Source: a virus
DNA: 25,139 bases
Reading direction: 5' to 3' (one strand)
IMG/VR virus record: IMGVR_UViG_3300021185_002065
Coordinates: 1 to 25,139 of that record
Of the stretch, positions 2,875-17,531 are shown in pieces. The position numbers and the translations under genes were made by a program. Within the stretch, counting starts at the first letter, position 1; each line of letters opens with the position of its first letter. Under the pieces are notes generated by a model, which was not told the DNA's origin, made no database searches, and was given only the letters and a program-made list of their open reading frames with translations.

Positions 2875-3117
2875 CTAGAATGTTACTGATTGAGTTAGCG
2901 TTCCAGCTATCTCAAGATTACCGTTAGATGCTAACCTAAATTTTAAAGCACCATTATGACTTATTAAGAGTTTTTGATTACTATCTTCCGTAATAGTCCA
3001 ATTAGAAATATTTACGGAAGCCGTAATGGATTCTAATTCTTCAACGGCTAATGTAGTTTGTTCAGCCCAAGAGTCTTGATCAACAATTCCTGTAATTGGT
3101 GGTTTAATTACTGCCAT
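2875..3117 (-). CDS. Small fibre-like protein (80 aa)
   Basis: Unknown protein that starts MAVIKPPITGIVDQDSWAEQ and ends with a beta-rich half containing NWTITEDSNQKLLISHNGAL and LRLASNGNLEIAGTLTQ-like strands (exact text FRLASNGNLEIAGTL). The second half resembles the repeat units at the ends of phage fibres, including those of the neighbouring 889-aa fibre. It could be a fibre accessory subunit or attachment piece joining the fibre to the tail. It overlaps the end of the upstream membrane protein gene by 14 nt and is followed 10 nt later by the fibre gene, so all three are probably translated from one message. The open frame is clear; the structural role is inferred from position and composition. 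Confidence 0.65.
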   Translation of the reverse strand: MAVIKPPITGIVDQDSWAEQTTLAVEELESITASVNISNWTITEDSNQKLLISHNGALKFRLASNGNLEIAGTLTQSVTF

Positions 3118-3415
3118 TTTCTAATTCCTCAATAACGACTTCAAGTTTATTGATGCGTTCCTGAAGAAATTCAATCATCATATCTTGTTTGGAGTCAGCA
3201 GGTAAAACGCCAAGCTCTCCGCGAGGCCACTTCACTCGAAACTCGCTATTCATTTTAGTGTAAACAAGTTGTTTATCCGCTTCATTCTCAAGAGAGTTAA
3301 GCCGTTCTACAATACCAAAATAACCCCACACAGCTATAGCTACGCTAGCAATCATGCCTAAAAGATTCCTAATGGGAATCGTAATTTCTGTGTTATCGTT
3401 TACTTCAGTAGACAT
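3104..3415 (-). CDS. Membrane-anchored coiled-coil protein (103 aa)
   Basis: One hydrophobic segment at about residues 18-34 (LLGMIASVAIAVWGYFGIV), followed by a charged, mostly helical part and a C-terminal predicted coiled coil (MIEFLQERINKLEVVIEELE). The central WPRGELGVLPADSKQDMMIE resembles a conserved small protein of marine phages known to me only as hypothetical. An ATG at 3415 (MSTEV) is preferred. A GTG at 3427 would add four residues but has no ribosome binding site. A single membrane anchor with an extended helix would suit a spanin-like or virion-associated role, but no lysis signature such as a lipobox is seen. It sits between a small basic protein gene and a fibre-like gene. 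Confidence 0.68.
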   Translation of the reverse strand: MSTEVNDNTEITIPIRNLLGMIASVAIAVWGYFGIVERLNSLENEADKQLVYTKMNSEFRVKWPRGELGVLPADSKQDMMIEFLQERINKLEVVIEELENGSN

Positions 3416-3420
3416 ATTAT

Positions 3421-3696
3421 TCACCACTTAGTTTTGTGAGACCAATAACGGGCGCTCAACTTGCTGGGACTAGAATCCTGTGCATTATGTCGAGCGTAAT
3501 AAGCTTTCTTACGAGCCTTCCCAGCTTTAGTCTTCGGGTTTTTTCCTTCACCGCTAACGCCTTGTGCGCCGAAGCGAATAAGTTTGATCTTATCGCCTTC
3601 TTTAGCAAGCACTGCATGGCTTTTCTTAGGGTGTTTAGACGTCCGTTTGGGTTTGTTATAACCGCTAAACGTTTCGCCTCTATAATTAATACTCAT
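3421..3696 (-). CDS. Small basic protein of unknown function (91 aa)
   Basis: Very lysine/arginine-rich protein beginning MSINYRGETFSGYNKPKRTS. It has a KIKLIRFGAQG stretch, then a long basic helix (KAGKARKKAYYARHNA) and a C-terminal SARYWSHKTKW. The pattern KLIRFG..G, ARHA and SA.YW...KW is familiar from conserved hypothetical proteins in marine phage structural modules, from memory only. High positive charge suggests nucleic-acid contact, perhaps DNA inside the head, but there is no direct evidence. Its ATG overlaps the 3' end of the upstream 58-codon gene by 11 nt in another frame, and GGAG lies just upstream within that gene. Confidence 0.7.
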   Translation of the reverse strand: MSINYRGETFSGYNKPKRTSKHPKKSHAVLAKEGDKIKLIRFGAQGVSGEGKNPKTKAGKARKKAYYARHNAQDSSPSKLSARYWSHKTKW

Positions 3697-3862
3697 AAAT
3701 CCTCTCCATTATTAAATTCTCTTGATCACATAAGGCAGCTTCAAGCTGACCTGATAGAATATCTAACTCCGCTAGTGTTTCCCGCTTCATATCTCTGTGG
3801 AGACAGCGTTTCATTGTGTGAATAGTCTTGTTCATTGCTTCTAAACGTTCAAGAGAGTTCAT
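3686..3862 (-). CDS. Short helical protein (58 aa)
   Basis: A 58-codon frame starting MNSLERLEAMNKTIHTMKRC and ending EEN-like helix ENLIMERIYEY. It is amphipathic and probably all helical (ELDILSGQLEAALCDQ), with two Cys residues that show no metal-site spacing. AGGT lies 6 nt before the ATG. The stop overlaps the start of the downstream basic-protein gene by 11 nt, the tight overlap style seen throughout the genome, which is the main support that it is real. It is the first gene after the structured intergenic stretch at about 3911-3987. No function can be assigned. Confidence 0.6.
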   Translation of the reverse strand: MNSLERLEAMNKTIHTMKRCLHRDMKRETLAELDILSGQLEAALCDQENLIMERIYEY

Positions 3863-3910
3863 TTTTTACCTATTATTGTTTGAGTTGAAGAAAATAGGCA
3901 GTTTACATTC

Positions 3911-3987
3911 ATGCCTAGGAACCCTTGTCGGGTCGGATTGCTCCGACTTCCACGAATGGCGTAACGCGACGCCTGCTCCGTAGGGGC
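3911..3987. other. Structured intergenic region: three consecutive hairpins
   Basis: In the 156-nt gap between 3863 and 4018 three hairpins follow each other: 3932-3947 (GTCGGA/TCCGAC, 6 bp, tetraloop TTGC on plus or the GNRA loop GCAA on minus), 3958-3973 (GGCGT/ACGCC, 6-nt loop) and 3975-3987 (GCTCC/GGGGC, 3-nt loop, one G.U pair on plus). GGAA at 3918-3921 can also pair with TTCC at 3948-3951 and enclose the first hairpin. The stretch is far richer in G+C than its surroundings. It is not a recognisable tRNA or known ribozyme core. It may be a leftward RNA leader, a processing site, a terminator without a U-run, or a DNA site for replication or packaging. The transcribed strand is unknown. 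Confidence 0.4.
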
Positions 3988-4018
3988 TGTATTACTTAAC
4001 CCAGCCCAAGGTAATCTC

Positions 4019-4531
4019 TTATAATTTTGTCCAATTACTTATAGGTGTTAAAAACATACTACTCTTATATTCTTTCTCAGTTAATATCAAATCACCTGCA
4101 AAAGAAATTCTTTGATTCTTATTCACAGTAGGCTTAATATAATGAATTAAATAATTTGGAATAACAATAAAATCGTTAATTTCAACGTTAACTTCAAACT
4201 CGATATTGTTTACATCCCGAATAATTAAAGGCGACGCCTCACTAACTTTAGTATAGAATACAAAACTAAAATGAGAGTAACCATGATTATGCGGGTTAAC
4301 TGGAATAGGGAAGTCTTTAGGTATGCTAATACACCAAGATTGAGCGAGATACTTATCGTAATCTTTCGGTAAGTACTCGTCAATCTTTTGATTTATTTTT
4401 TGTAATACAGAAGGAAATCGGTTTAAACAGTTAGGTACTTCTTCTTCCGAAGAACCTTCGAACTCACTTGCGAAATTATTAAGCGCAGTTAATTCTTTCT
4501 TGTTTAAATTAATTTTTGTTTTCCAATACAT
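4019..4531 (-). CDS. 2-oxoglutarate/Fe(II) oxygenase-like protein, copy 2 of tandem pair (170 aa)
   Basis: A double-stranded beta-helix (cupin-like) protein with the layout of the 2OG-Fe(II) oxygenase superfamily. H81-N-H83 in NPHNHGYSHFSFVFY begins the core, H130 in DFIVIPNYLIHYIKP is the distal metal histidine, and R141 in RISFAG is the expected 2-oxoglutarate-binding arginine. Members use Fe(II), O2 and 2-oxoglutarate to hydroxylate a substrate; the substrate here is unknown. It is a paralog of the gene immediately upstream: the same length, with 87 of 170 positions identical in an ungapped alignment by my count and all four key residues conserved. AAAGGAC precedes the ATG. Low-G+C coding sequence. 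The fold assignment is fairly strong, the reaction is inferred. Confidence 0.72.
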   Translation of the reverse strand: MYWKTKINLNKKELTALNNFASEFEGSSEEEVPNCLNRFPSVLQKINQKIDEYLPKDYDKYLAQSWCISIPKDFPIPVNPHNHGYSHFSFVFYTKVSEASPLIIRDVNNIEFEVNVEINDFIVIPNYLIHYIKPTVNKNQRISFAGDLILTEKEYKSSMFLTPISNWTKL

Positions 4532-4561
4532 TTTTATGATTGTCCTTTAATGTAACGTCAA

Positions 4562-5074
4562 TCATAATCGACACCAGTTGTGAATTGGTGGTAAATAAGT
4601 ACTATTTTCATGTTCATGTTCTGTAACAATAATATCACCAGCAAAACAAATTCTGTTTTCAGTGACTACATTTGGTTCAATTTGATGTTGATAGTAATTA
4701 GGGAGAATAATAAAATCTCCGAAATCAACATCTACTCTGAATGTTAAGTTATTCATATCCATTAATACTAAAGGACAACCTTGATTTGCAGTCGTGTAAA
4801 AAACAAAACTAAAATGAGTGTAACCATGATTGTGAAGATTAACTTGAGATTTTTTCCCAGGTTTAATATTAACGGACCAAGACTGAGTCATATACTTAAC
4901 GTATGATGAAGGTAAATAAGCATCAATATTAGCATTTACTTTTTCTAAAACAGAAGGGAAATCTATTAAAATATTAGGAATATCAAATTCCGAACCGCCC
5001 TCATATTTTAATGCAACTTCATTTAAACTAGTTACTTCTTCATCCGTTAATTCGATCTTAGTTTTACTTAACAT
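4562..5074 (-). CDS. 2-oxoglutarate/Fe(II) oxygenase-like protein, copy 1 of tandem pair (170 aa)
   Basis: Paralog of the next gene downstream, with the same candidate metal histidines (H81, H83 in LHNHGYTHFSFVFY; H130 in DFIILPNYYQHQ) and the 2-oxoglutarate arginine R141 (RICFAGD). The family resembles the putative 2OG-Fe(II) oxygenases common in marine phages, whose targets are mostly unknown. The ATG follows the reductase stop directly (TAAATG), so it is translationally coupled to the B12-dependent reductase and probably expressed with it. That linkage hints at a role in nucleotide or DNA metabolism, or at a shared expression time, but does not prove either. Both copies keep the catalytic residues, so neither looks decayed. 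Confidence 0.73.
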   Translation of the reverse strand: MLSKTKIELTDEEVTSLNEVALKYEGGSEFDIPNILIDFPSVLEKVNANIDAYLPSSYVKYMTQSWSVNIKPGKKSQVNLHNHGYTHFSFVFYTTANQGCPLVLMDMNNLTFRVDVDFGDFIILPNYYQHQIEPNVVTENRICFAGDIIVTEHEHENSTYLPPIHNWCRL

Positions 5075-10871: not shown

Positions 10872-10891
10872 TTCTTATAGGGACTTATACT
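10872..10891 (-). promoter_or_regulatory. Candidate phage promoter/operator, leftward copy
   Basis: On the minus strand reads AGTATAAGTCCCTATAAGAA, identical at 19 of 20 positions to two plus-strand copies at 14191-14210 and 16773-16792. It faces the leftward block and ends 26 nt before its first ATG. The motif contains two TATAAG units spaced 10 bp apart (one helical turn) around CCC. A phage-specific promoter is the favoured reading; a repressor or activator operator is the alternative. Confidence 0.65.
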
Positions 10892-11037: not shown

Positions 11038-11307
11038 ATGTCGCAGCACCACTCACCCACCACCGCCCTTGTCGCAACTAGCCGCGCGCTAATTGCGGCA
11101 CAACGTGAGCTTATCCCGCTCCTCGAGAAACGCGCCGAGCTTGCCAATCAGCTGTTCGAGCTTGAGGGTTCAATCTCGCTAGCTAAAGATAAGGTAGCTG
11201 CCTTGAAGGAAGCTCGCGAGGTTCTCAACTTTTACGTTTACGCCGACGACGAGGACGAACTTTCCGATGCCGCTGACGCTGTGTTGGAAGGTCCCTTCGG
11301 TTGCTAA
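11038..11307 (+). CDS. First early gene: coiled-coil protein with acidic tail (89 aa)
   Basis: Unknown helical protein. It has a short Ser/Thr/His-rich start (MSQHHSPTTALVATSR) and a long heptad-like helix (ELIPLLEKRAELANQLFELE through KVAALKEAREVL). An acidic segment follows, with YADDEDELSDAADA and an end in FGC. The start is set by GGAGG about 6 nt upstream. G+C of the first 120 nt is about 62% by my count, clearly above the neighbours, and codons such as GCC, CGC and ACC dominate, suggesting a different history or host-adapted expression. As the first rightward gene it is a candidate host-takeover protein; that is inference. Its stop lies within the first nucleotides of hammerhead 1. Confidence 0.7.
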   Translation: MSQHHSPTTALVATSRALIAAQRELIPLLEKRAELANQLFELEGSISLAKDKVAALKEAREVLNFYVYADDEDELSDAADAVLEGPFGC

Positions 11308-11368
11308 TCCGAAACACCTTTCGGGGTGTCTGCGCAGGATGAACTCTGCGTACTGATGAGGTAGTTCA
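11304..11368 (+). ncRNA. Hammerhead ribozyme 1 (type II topology)
   Basis: Core is complete: GAAA at 11311-11314 and CTGATGA at 11353-11359. Stem III is CACC/GGTG (11315-11318 with 11325-11328) plus the A11314-U11329 pair, followed by C11330, the predicted cleavage site. Stem I is 8 bp (11331-11338 with 11345-11352, including G.U pairs). Stem II is only GG/CC (11360-11361 with 11309-11310), extendable by UAG/CUA across a 2-nt bulge. The stem I loop UGAAC (11340-11344) can pair with GUUCA (11364-11368). It begins at the stop codon of the upstream gene and ends 15 nt before the next ATG. Confidence 0.83.
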
Positions 11369-11383
11369 ATAAAGGAGAATAGT

Positions 11384-11620
11384 ATGAAGAAGAAACAACG
11401 AGTGTATGCTCGCATCGTGTCATTGGGTTCTTTGATCCGCTGGCACTTAACCGCTATCTTGGTTGGCATCGTCATCCAACTAGCTTTCACATGGTATCAT
11501 CATGAGATGACTATGAGTAAGTTAGATGGTATGGTCGATACTACCGTGAAGTTATATAAAGTCTGTTCAGAGATCGGTCTGAGCGACTGTAATAAAGTAC
11601 GTAAGATATTGCGTGATTAA
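11384..11620 (+). CDS. Single-pass membrane protein (78 aa)
   Basis: Basic N-terminus (MKKKQRVYAR), one transmembrane helix at about residues 20-37 (WHLTAILVGIVIQLAFTWYH), then a mainly helical tail with two Cys (VCSEIGLSDCNKV). N-terminal positive charge suggests an N-in orientation. AAAGGAG lies about 7 nt upstream. Unknown function; an early inner-membrane protein could alter host envelope or exclude competing phages, but this is speculative. The gene is bracketed by hammerheads 1 and 2, so its mature message would be a separate short RNA with a hairpin at both ends. Confidence 0.68.
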   Translation: MKKKQRVYARIVSLGSLIRWHLTAILVGIVIQLAFTWYHHEMTMSKLDGMVDTTVKLYKVCSEIGLSDCNKVRKILRD

Positions 11621-11677
11621 GCCGAAACCCTTCGAGGGTCTGTATGGATTGAACACCATGCACTGATGAGGCAGTTC
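11621..11677 (+). ncRNA. Hammerhead ribozyme 2 (type II topology)
   Basis: Starts at the nucleotide after the upstream TAA. GAAA is at 11624-11627 and CTGATGA at 11663-11669. Stem III is CCCT/AGGG (11628-11631 with 11635-11638, loop TCG) plus A11627-U11639; cleavage is predicted after C11640. Stem I is 7 bp (11641-11647 with 11656-11662, loop ATTGAACA). Stem II is GGC/GCC (11670-11672 with 11621-11623). Loop GAAC (11651-11654) can pair with GTTC (11674-11677). Best of the three by core and stem quality. The next ATG is 28 nt downstream. Confidence 0.88.
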
Positions 11678-11704
11678 CTTAGTCATAAATCATGGAGAAT
11701 TATT

Positions 11705-12154
11705 ATGACAAACACAATCAAAACATCTATCATCCGCGACGTAACTCTTAACTACGCCTTCCTCGATACACCTCACGCCCCTTTCGGTGGTGATCCAGTG
11801 TTCGACGTACAGGTTGTAGTACCTAAGAAGCGTCGTAAGGAACTCGAAGCTTTCGGGAAGGTCCGTGAAGTTGAGGGTGGTGTTGCCATTAACATTAAGC
11901 GTTACGCTAAGGATGCTAAGGGTAAGGCCGTTAAGATCGATGTTGTTACTTCTACTAAAGAAGACTTCCGTGCTGAGTATGGTAGTGCTTCTTGTATCGG
12001 TAACGGTTCTAAGGGTGCTATCAAGGTCTTCACATACCCTCGTGGAGAACAAACTATCGCCCGTCTTTCTGCTGTCCAAGTGACTGAGCTTAAGAAATAT
12101 GAGCCAACACCCACGGTTGACTTCGATAGCATCGAGGCTTCTGAAGACTTCTAA
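11705..12154 (+). CDS. T7 gp2.5-like single-stranded DNA-binding protein, early paralog (149 aa)
   Basis: Shares a clear pattern with the protein at 17061-17531: APFG near residue 25, a KR.AK..KG block, IGNGS, VK.FTYP, LSAVQVT.L..Y.PT..VDFD, and an acidic end with terminal EDF. That ending (acidic tail plus C-terminal Phe) is the hallmark of T7 gp2.5, which uses it to contact the polymerase and helicase. It would coat single-stranded DNA during replication, or, given its early position, protect or bind other nucleic acid. The start has GGAG 8 nt upstream; the in-frame ATG at 11666 lies inside hammerhead 2. It is shorter than T7 gp2.5 (232 aa). Flanked by hammerheads 2 and 3. Confidence 0.75.
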   Translation: MTNTIKTSIIRDVTLNYAFLDTPHAPFGGDPVFDVQVVVPKKRRKELEAFGKVREVEGGVAINIKRYAKDAKGKAVKIDVVTSTKEDFRAEYGSASCIGNGSKGAIKVFTYPRGEQTIARLSAVQVTELKKYEPTPTVDFDSIEASEDF

Positions 12155-12213
12155 GTCGAAACTCCCTTCGGGGAGTCTACGTAGGATAGTCTCTACGTAC
12201 TGATGAGACAGAC
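12155..12213 (+). ncRNA. Hammerhead ribozyme 3 (type II topology)
   Basis: Begins at the nucleotide after the stop of the early DNA-binding protein. GAAA is at 12158-12161 and CTGATGA at 12200-12206. Stem III is CTCCC/GGGAG with a UUCG loop (12162-12175) plus A12161-U12176; cleavage is predicted after C12177. Stem I is 7 bp perfect (12178-12184 with 12193-12199) plus a G.U pair. Stem II is GAC/GTC (12207-12209 with 12155-12157). Loop GUCU (12189-12192) can pair with AGAC (12210-12213), different in sequence from copies 1 and 2 but still complementary. Confidence 0.88.
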
Positions 12214-12236
12214 ATCTCAATTGAAAGGAAACTGTT

Positions 12237-13742: not shown

Positions 13743-14197
13743 TAGTTGATTACGAGTGGTCTTCGGATGGCGACCATAATGCCATTGAGAACTGGGCTAC
13801 AGACTTCCTATGTCACCTAGACGACAGTTTATTTGATAAAGGGGTAGCCTCTAAGTACGTTAACATTAAGATACGACACAATAATAACGATGGGATGGTA
13901 GGATATTGTCACGGGGACGACGAGGAAGCTTATATCGAACTAGACGAAACACTAATCGGAGACGAAGACTACTTCAAGGAGACGTTAGCACACGAACTAG
14001 TGCATGCCAAACAACTCCTGAAAGGAGAACTAGTAGACGAAACGGGGTTCAAGACGATATGGAAGGGTGAAGAATACGTTAACCTAAGAAACAAGCTACC
14101 CGAAGCTGTGTATAAGGCTCTCCCTTGGGAAGCCGAAGCGTATACCCGACAAGCCGACCACAGTCTTATCTCGAACGAACCTTTCTTTGAAGTATAA
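13736..14197 (+). CDS. Putative zinc metallopeptidase with HExxH (153 aa)
   Basis: Contains ETLAHELVHAKQLLKGEL with H86, E87 and H90 as the HExxH zinc site, and a downstream LPWEAEAYTRQA, in which E132 or E134 is the likely third ligand. This PWE.EAY arrangement is common in small SprT/wss1-like or related phage peptidases. An acidic, YGYCHGDDEEAYIELDE-like beta segment precedes the active-site helix (GYCHGDDEEAYIEL). No signal peptide, so it acts in the cytoplasm, perhaps on a host protein or protein-DNA crosslinks. The ATG overlaps the previous gene by 7 nt, and the stop lies within the promoter-like motif. Confidence 0.7.
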   Translation: MVIVDYEWSSDGDHNAIENWATDFLCHLDDSLFDKGVASKYVNIKIRHNNNDGMVGYCHGDDEEAYIELDETLIGDEDYFKETLAHELVHAKQLLKGELVDETGFKTIWKGEEYVNLRNKLPEAVYKALPWEAEAYTRQADHSLISNEPFFEV

Positions 14198-14210
14198 GGC
14201 CCTATAAGAA
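14191..14210 (+). promoter_or_regulatory. Candidate phage promoter/operator, rightward copy 1
   Basis: AGTATAAGGCCCTATAAGAA, identical over 20 nt to the copy at 16773-16792. It overlaps the peptidase stop codon (TAA at 14195-14197) and precedes a 119-nt leader, then the next gene. Two TATAAG units lie 10 bp apart. Confidence 0.65.
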
Positions 14211-14329
14211 AGGGGTTTCCCTAAGATATCCTTATAGGATATTAAAGGGATTATTAAAAGAATAATAATAATAAGATATCCTTTAAGGATACTTTTAGGA
14301 GCAACACCATCAACTGAAGGAGACTTACG
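14211..14329 (+). other. A+T-rich leader with two related hairpins
   Basis: Non-coding. AAGATATCC occurs twice (about 14223 and 14273). The first forms ATATCC/GGATAT (14226-14231 with 14237-14242) inside a longer imperfect CCC...GGG helix (14219-14249); the second forms TATCC/GGATA near 14276-14290. Between them is a run of AAT repeats. GAAGGAG at 14316-14322 serves the next gene. It could be an RNA leader or an A+T-rich unwinding element. Confidence 0.4.
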
Positions 14330-16531: not shown

Positions 16532-16774
16532 ATGGCTAAGAAACATCTTACAATAGGCATTGATGTCTACACACAGAACTTGGAGAAAGCAGCTACTCAT
16601 TGGGTTCGACTTACAATGCATGGTGCTGAACCAAGTCTTTATGTTAACACTTGGAATGTTAAAACAGCTAATCTCTCTTTGAGTGGCTGTAATTTCAGTC
16701 AAGAAGTATGGTCTATTCTAGAAGATATTAAAGAAGATGACGATTATGCAGCTGACTCAAACGATTTTGAGTAG
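16532..16774 (+). CDS. Hypothetical protein (80 aa)
   Basis: Starts MAKKHLTIGIDVYTQNLEKA. Beta-alpha-beta pattern (LTIGIDVYT, then HWVRLTMHGAEPSLYVNTW) and an acidic end (EDIKEDDDYAADSNDFE). AAAGGAT lies upstream of the ATG. Its stop codon overlaps the first two nt of the second rightward promoter-like motif, mirroring the arrangement at 14191. Acidic tail with a terminal FE resembles but does not match the gp2.5 type ending. Unknown. Confidence 0.6.
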   Translation: MAKKHLTIGIDVYTQNLEKAATHWVRLTMHGAEPSLYVNTWNVKTANLSLSGCNFSQEVWSILEDIKEDDDYAADSNDFE

Positions 16775-16792
16775 TATAAGGCCCTATAAGAA
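16773..16792 (+). promoter_or_regulatory. Candidate phage promoter/operator, rightward copy 2
   Basis: AGTATAAGGCCCTATAAGAA, 20/20 identical to the copy at 14191-14210. It starts in the stop codon of the upstream gene and lies 20 nt before the ATG of the DUF3310 gene, with GAAGGAG in between. It would give a message for the nucleotide and replication genes. Confidence 0.68.
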
Positions 16793-17060: not shown

Positions 17061-17531
17061 ATGAGTGAAAGTAAAGTAATGATTGTACGTGATTTGAAAG
17101 CTTACTACCCAAAGCTGATGAAGCCAGTAGCACCGTTTGGTACTGAGCAATTCGAGCTACAAGTACGGGCTGAAGAAAGCTCAGAAGCTTTTAAGACTCT
17201 CACTGATTTAGGTGTGAAAGGTAAGCCACAAGAAGATGGCACGATCGCATTTAATCTTAAGCGTAAAGCAAAGAACCGCAAGGGTGACGAGAATGGCGCA
17301 CCCGATGTAGTCGATGCAGCGCGGAAGCCGTTTGACGCTTCTATTATTGGTAACGGTTCTGGCGTTAATGTCAAACTGTTTACCTACCCTTACGATGTTC
17401 AAGGGCGTAAAGGCACTGGCGTAATGTTGTCTGCCGTACAAGTCACTGATTTAGTTGAGTACAAACCAACTAATAGCGTTGACTTTGATGCGGTAGAAGA
17501 CACTACTGTAGGTGTTGCAGAAGACTTTTAA
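17061..17531 (+). CDS. T7 gp2.5-like single-stranded DNA-binding protein, replication-region paralog (156 aa)
   Basis: Begins MSESKVMIVRDLKAYYPKLM. It shares with the early paralog (11705-12154) APFG, LKRKAKNRKG, IGNGSG, VKLFTYP, LSAVQVTDLVEYKPT, VDFD and the acidic C-terminus ending AEDF. In T7 gp2.5 the acidic tail with a terminal Phe binds polymerase and primase-helicase, so this is the better candidate for the true replicative protein given its position. GGAG lies upstream. The central part (residues about 70-95) differs from the paralog, so the two likely differ in DNA or partner binding. It is followed by a strong hairpin. Confidence 0.78.
   Translation: MSESKVMIVRDLKAYYPKLMKPVAPFGTEQFELQVRAEESSEAFKTLTDLGVKGKPQEDGTIAFNLKRKAKNRKGDENGAPDVVDAARKPFDASIIGNGSGVNVKLFTYPYDVQGRKGTGVMLSAVQVTDLVEYKPTNSVDFDAVEDTTVGVAEDF

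Follow-up and report, generated by a model that had tools for sequence, protein, structure and literature searches.

Genomic setting

The window, the whole stretch of 25,139 nucleotides analysed here, is an IMG/VR virus record (IMGVR_UViG_3300021185_002065). Judged by terminase (61% identity) and DNA polymerase (40%), the nearest deposited phage is Roseobacter phage CRP-7, whose host is a Rhodobacteraceae bacterium and which encodes a T7-like RNA polymerase. Between leftward genes, the first-pass annotation had described a G+C-rich hairpin element of 77 nt at 3911–3987, lying in an A+T-rich region and crossed by no convincing coding frame. The composition stands at 62.3% G+C for 3911–3987 against 34.6% for 3000–5000 without the element. 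The homologues measure 121, 128, 132, 125 and 126 nt over the same columns and have no common frame. The hairpin element itself is real, but its limits had to be redrawn: the hairpins at 3911–3987 form part of a larger conserved unit of about 3895–4018. The features of the locus are collected in Table 1.

Table 1. Features of the element, its surroundings and the related loci
Feature	Position	Strand	Remark
Whole conserved RNA element, ~124 nt	3895..4018	-	alignment of five distinct homologues; covariance model matches
2OG-Fe(II) oxygenase-like gene, upstream of element	4019..4531	-	its stop codon directly precedes element
58-aa gene, directly downstream of element in window	3686..3862	-	without family match
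91-aa gene, phrog_7595	3421..3696	-	constant downstream neighbour of element
P1 5' arm CCUUG	4007..4011	-	partner 3923–3927 CAAGG, as modelled
P2 hairpin GGCUG (4002–4006)/CAGCC (3985–3989)	3985..4006	-	loop GGUUAAGUAAUA conserved; one compensated pair
P3 hairpin	3950..3983	-	P3a CUACGGA/UUCGUGG, bulge GCA, P3b GGCGU/ACGCC
P5 hairpin GUCGGA/UCCGAC	3932..3947	-	variable loop and length
P6 hairpin UAGGC/GCCUA	3895..3917	-	
Block A ACCCGACAAGG	3923..3933	-	complementary to 23S CCUUGUCGGGU
Block B GUCGGAGC (GUCGGAAC in other four sequences)	3940..3947	-	complementary to 23S GUUCCGAC, one G-U in window
Block C CGUUACGCCAUUCGUG	3951..3966	-	complementary to Ruegeria and Sulfitobacter 23S CACGAAUGGCGUAACG, 16/16 in window
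Putative phage promoter, head of leftward late operon	10872..10890	-	motif GTATAAGTCCCTATAAGAA
Type II hammerhead ribozymes (RF02276) in window	11307–11370, 11620–11680, 12154–12217	+	early operon gene boundaries
Type II hammerheads in relatives	L129 570–633; L100 5533–5596, 6078–6139; L099 1512–1573; L104 102–165	L129 +; L100, L099, L104 -	

The tandem 2OG-Fe(II) oxygenase-like genes (4019–4531 and 4562–5074, minus strand) belong to an exchangeable cargo region. This region sits between the reductase and the tail genes, and by eye it holds lysis-like genes in some relatives. At least 600 stretches related to the 91-aa gene (3421–3696) occur among viral contigs. The gene shows a weak link to a minor head or pilot protein family, and no Pfam family matches it at E 0.001.

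A 19-nt motif, GTATAAGKCCCTATAAGAA, is common to 10872–10890 (minus strand), 14192–14210 and 16774–16792 (both plus strand), and the plus-strand copies at 14192 and 16774 repeat the late-operon sequence but for one base. At up to 3 mismatches, 0.01 matches are expected. The motif also precedes the terminase in L097, L099 and L100, with 1–2 mismatches to the scanned consensus, and in L104, with 4. We regard it as the probable promoter for an RNA polymerase encoded by the phage; no gene for such a polymerase was identified in the window. The element is found 6.9 kb downstream of the copy at 10872–10890. Even when up to 5 mismatches are allowed, no further late-promoter motif turns up on the window's minus strand, neither from the operon head to the element nor within the element. 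Just downstream of a promoter-like motif on the plus strand, we notice two 20-nt repeats (TAAGATATCCTTATAGGATA, 90% alike) spaced 50 nt apart at 14222–14291.

Distribution and conservation

We located relatives through protein similarity and with three DNA patterns. Besides the window, the element occurs in seven IMG/VR contigs with seven different IMG sample numbers, which contribute four further distinct sequences. A fourth DNA pattern, built from two 23S-complementary blocks, returned, like the first three, the same seven viral contigs and no others. The five distinct sequences are that of the window; L002, on the same contig as L086 and L098; L004, equal to L083 and with identical copies in L096/L087 and L105/L088; L084, equal to L099 and with an identical copy in L101/L089; and L085, equal to L100.

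Over 121 aligned columns per pair, with 4–11 gap columns set aside, the identity to the window is 95.9% for L002, 90.9% for L004, 92.6% for L084 and 95.0% for L085. At the third codon positions of the 91-aa gene, the corresponding values are 57.1%, 57.1%, 49.5% and 53.8%. Recent recombinational exchange of the element could account for part of this gap.

A covariance model made from the five sequences gave 152–170 bits in the ten scanned sources that hold the element, and nothing better than E 0.16 in the remaining ones. That weak match, in L062, was the single one among 79 sources, namely the Salmonella 23S stretch and 78 further loci surrounding genes related to the 91-aa gene. The whole records of L100 and L099 contain one copy each. 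Eight whole records contain none, namely L097, L093, L094, L104, L106, L107, L112 and CRP-7, the last over its entire 58,106 bases. Nine distinct relatives have both the ribonucleotide reductase and the 91-aa gene visible, counting L096 with L083 and L101 with L099, which are identical in the element. Five of them carry the element (the window, L083, L098, L099, L100) and four do not (L093, L094, L097, L104). The element is dispensable, since relatives without it exist.

In all carriers, the same gene or gene pair follows shortly downstream of the element. The upstream gene varies, those of L083 and L100 looking related by eye, and at all five distinct loci the model match starts anywhere from 1 nt within the upstream stop codon to 4 nt past it. 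In L094, which is without the element, a short plain gap of about two dozen bases separates the genes. A similar gene precedes the site in L093 (6500–6545, without the element) and in L099 (9085–9242, with it). The L093 site has AAACTGCC, a sequence also present near the 3' end of the element, and this stretch may be a remnant of the element. In L083, the repeat AATTTAAGGAGA flanks the cassette on both sides.

With Rfam 15, no family matched over the element at the gathering cut-offs. Six weak matches appeared in 3860–4040 at E up to 10, scoring 9–14 bits against cut-offs of 40–93. ARAGORN called no tRNA or tmRNA gene in the window. The type II hammerhead model RF02276 matches three other sites of the window and not the element. 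An intrinsic terminator was rejected: such a site would need a G+C-rich hairpin and a T run behind it on the minus strand, and the sole site called within the element (3975–3987) is on the plus strand. An integron attC-like site was also rejected, as no inverse core is seen by eye. A pattern with an exact stem and a flexible loop gave 0 matches. In bacterial genomes, one exact pattern likewise gave 0 matches, and a 19-base pattern gave 3. Two of these fit the model only over 14 bases belonging to the pattern, and the third shows no fit to it; with scores of 22–26, none resembles 23S.

Fold and probable active strand

On the basis of the alignment, we modelled the minus strand with six helices and 32 pairs. 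All 160 of the 160 cells are paired; two pairs are compensated and three cells have both sides changed. Slid controls of the same model were 25–51% paired, and one of them also had one compensated pair. Among 500 column shuffles, 6 reached the pairing and covariation score and 67 reached the number of compensated pairs. The covariation support for the minus-strand fold is suggestive, not overwhelming.

The second compensated pair, beside that of P2, lies in P3a, where U-G becomes A-U in two sequences. The modelled pairs of P1, P3b and P5 are invariant across the five sequences. Extending P5 by its next pair brings in an A-A in one of five cells (L084), the exception among helix substitutions that nearly all preserve pairing. 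The pairing of P1 is unproven because the helix is invariant; folding programs prefer the register ACCUU/AGGGU over the modelled CCUUG/CAAGG, and both registers are invariant. An alternative helix, P4, joins 3906–3912 in the P6 loop with 3952–3958. It is kept in 35 of 35 cells, in all five sequences, and competes with P3a. For this reason, the element is possibly a two-state RNA.

Of the three hairpins described in the first-pass annotation, two are retained. One is the perfect minus-strand hairpin with a GNRA loop, GUCGGA-GCAA-UCCGAC, and the other is GGCGU-N6-ACGCC. The third (3975–3987) falls away: on the plus strand, one homologue of the five has a C-A that breaks it, and in the minus-strand fold its arms belong to P2 and P3a instead. 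An enclosing GGAA/UUCC pairing, also described there, is lost in two of the five sequences, GGAA being replaced by UGUA in L004 and by UGUGA in L084.

Comparison of the two strands gave the following picture. The RNAalifold consensus of the minus strand has -40.4 kcal/mol with a covariation term of -0.84 and two compensated pairs, versus -32.2, a term of +1 and zero compensated pairs on the plus strand. Single-sequence minimum-energy folds of the minus strand contain P1, P2, P3, P5 and P6 in four of five sequences, with a local register shift within P3 in L002 and L085, and L004 differs. When the same helices are placed on the plus strand, cells are lost in P2 (4/28), P3a (8/35) and P6 (2/30). 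The two independent consensus folds make the fairer comparison, because these helices come from the minus-strand model and using them gives that strand an advantage. The folding z-score over 97 nt is modest, at -1.77 for the minus and -0.04 for the plus strand, and reaches -2.67 for the 156-nt minus-strand intergenic stretch. Across the five homologues, the strands show little difference (-0.9 to -2.0 for minus, -0.75 to -1.5 for plus). Taken together, the minus strand, on which the leftward late genes lie, is the better supported of the two.

What this marine phage carries is a conserved, folded RNA that no Rfam family covers. The proposal of a new small RNA or a processed leader is partly supported, in kind: the structured RNA is conserved, lies on the mRNA strand, shows two compensated pairs and has no Rfam match. 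A DNA site, also proposed, is less likely, since several substitutions are minus-strand G-U wobbles, and wobbles kept in this way would be A-C mismatches on the opposite strand. The helix substitutions also bear on the idea that the element has no function and is a neutral cassette edge spread by recombination. The exchange of upstream cargo around the element and the repeat on both cassette sides in L083 would suit such an edge, but it would hardly produce two compensated pairs or helix substitutions that, apart from the A-A in P5 of L084, keep pairing. We consider this explanation improbable.

Complementarity to 23S rRNA

The starting lead was a similarity search against annotated phages, which brought up 17 weakly matching records (E 0.5 to 6). 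Thirteen of the 17 showed the same 42-nt match, 6 of the 13 being annotated as 23S, and the database match stood at E 6. The 23S target was chosen post hoc from this weak match. Repeating the search with L002 yielded 6 records, and 23S was shown for none of them. The plus strand aligns with the Salmonella 23S over CCTTGTCGGGT...TCCGAC..CACGAATGGCGTAA. Because it aligns in the 23S sense, the minus-strand RNA is complementary to 23S.

Three blocks of 11, 8 (with one G-U) and 16 nt, 35 nt in all, are complementary to host-type 23S in what is presumably the helix 71 (H71) region. We take the target of block A, CCUUGUCGGGU, to be about 1941–1951 of the E. coli 23S. H71 lies at the ribosomal subunit interface and is folded inside the mature subunit.

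The local score with the Salmonella 23S is 42 for the window, 38 for L002, 38 for L004, 33 for L084 and 38 for L085, and 200 shuffles per sequence scored at most 30. Among 1721 GC-matched segments from the window and the loci, element copies included and partly redundant owing to overlapping loci, ten score at least 33. All ten are the element, and the best other segment scores 32. With the 23S of Ruegeria and Sulfitobacter, the group of the likely host, the match is longer by two bases and the window score rises to 46. The duplex energy with the Salmonella 23S is -79.0, compared with a mean of -52.1 and a minimum of -63.1 for 150 single-base shuffles. The Ruegeria 23S gives -70.7 to -77.4, which is no gain over Salmonella. 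The match does not extend into the flanking 23S. Against the shuffles and GC-matched controls tried, the complementarity thus appears to exceed chance, for a target chosen post hoc.

Two of four plasmid-borne 23S stretches were used. Those of Rufibacter and Thermomicrobium were dropped: the former is without the part after H71, and in the latter the search motif is absent in both orientations, so that its orientation is not established. The dropped stretches scored 18–24 in the complementary orientation and 22–28 in the other.

Three positions vary within the blocks. Two of them change A-U to G-U with 23S, and the third, G to U at the edge of block C in L004 and L084, loses the 23S pair. Variable columns number 2 of 32 in the blocks, 14 of 19 in the gaps between them, where the variable edge column of block C is counted, and 10 of 81 in the rest of the element. 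Blocks and rest do not differ significantly (Fisher p 0.50); p becomes 0.039 only when the gap columns are included. The blocks do not stand out by conservation alone, since the remaining part of the element varies about as little. The block arms also take part in the element's own helices, which gives their conservation another cause.

Since the plus strand reads in the 23S sense, that strand might be the active one, either as an RNA decoy imitating H71 or as a DNA site resembling an rRNA gene. We give this little credence. The homologues differ in their plus-strand folds, A-C mismatches arise in P2, P3a and P6 in at least one sequence (for helices taken from the minus-strand model), and leftward is the direction both of the adjacent genes and of the closest late promoter motif.

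Possible action on ribosomes or in cis

Our leading interpretation, with a probability of roughly 0.4, is that the element, a structured part of the late mRNA, base-pairs with 23S rRNA and tethers or blocks 50S subunits, changing late translation. In the proposed course of events, the element, with a variable cargo gene on one side and the next conserved gene on the other, would be transcribed as part of a long late mRNA. The loops of P3b and P5 would start the pairing with 23S when the H71 region is exposed, as in free or maturing 50S subunits. The RNA may act within the mRNA or after release from it, and the paired RNA would tether or block 50S subunits and so alter translation late in infection. 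The claim that a folded RNA derived from late mRNA pairs with the H71 region of the host 23S and so captures or disables 50S subunits is a doubtful one. If true, it would mean control of the ribosome by a phage at the RNA level, with a phage RNA aimed at the ribosome core. A limited search of the open-access literature found no phage RNA complementary to 23S. Even without 23S pairing, the element adds a conserved RNA without an Rfam family to a marine phage group that also bears hammerhead ribozymes.

Nearly as likely as the 23S-pairing interpretation is a purely cis-acting mRNA element that governs processing, stability or translation and insulates the cargo, the 23S likeness being a relic or irrelevant. 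Its start at the upstream stop codon in the five distinct loci, its location in a leader that always belongs to the same gene or gene pair, the lack of a late promoter motif (up to 5 mismatches) between operon head and element, and the three hammerheads at stop-codon boundaries of the early operon all agree with such a role. In a compact genome, however, any intergenic element follows a stop codon, L094 manages with its plain gap, and the 23S complementarity is left unexplained.

Another conceivable role is self-cleavage: the element might be a new ribozyme that severs the late mRNA in the way the hammerheads presumably sever the early one. It occupies the same kind of slot, its fold is compact and multi-helical, and its unpaired segments are invariant. 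No Rfam ribozyme family is among the matches up to E 10, however, and no known catalytic core is recognised by eye, which leaves this a very slim prospect.

Relation to known phage RNAs

The 'epsilon' enhancer in the T7 gene 10 leader is a short stretch said to be complementary to 16S rRNA. The element resembles it as a stretch of phage late mRNA with rRNA complementarity, but epsilon is short and directed at 16S, whereas the element is structured and offers 35 nt in three blocks to 23S. RNase III processing sites of T7-like phages are likewise hairpins between the genes of phage mRNAs, and CRP-7 has a T7-like RNA polymerase. These sites are mainly single long hairpins, in contrast to the conserved multi-helix fold described here.

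The RNA anti-CRISPRs (Racr) are described in PMC10651486 as small phage RNAs imitating CRISPR repeats. They share with the element the imitation of a part of a host RNA by a small phage RNA. They differ in the part imitated, since the element resembles the complement of 23S rRNA.

The type II hammerheads are, like the element, structured RNAs at stop-codon boundaries of the same phage. They are unlike it in fold and sequence, and they lie in the early operon rather than the late one. Passages of PMC3088659 already report hammerheads in phage intergenic regions and several in one polycistronic RNA. The words hammerhead, ribozyme and noncoding do not occur in the main text of the CRP-7 paper (PMC6918029). 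Hammerheads were also found in CRP-7, L099, L100 (two) and L104; among nine loci scanned together, the others had none, apart from L084, which is on the same contig as L099. For all three hammerheads of the window, the first base coincides with the final base of an ORF's stop codon. On the plus strand, we also notice a 54-nt stretch, 72% identical, common to two genes (11987–12040 and 17337–17390), a likeness that suggests a duplicated gene.
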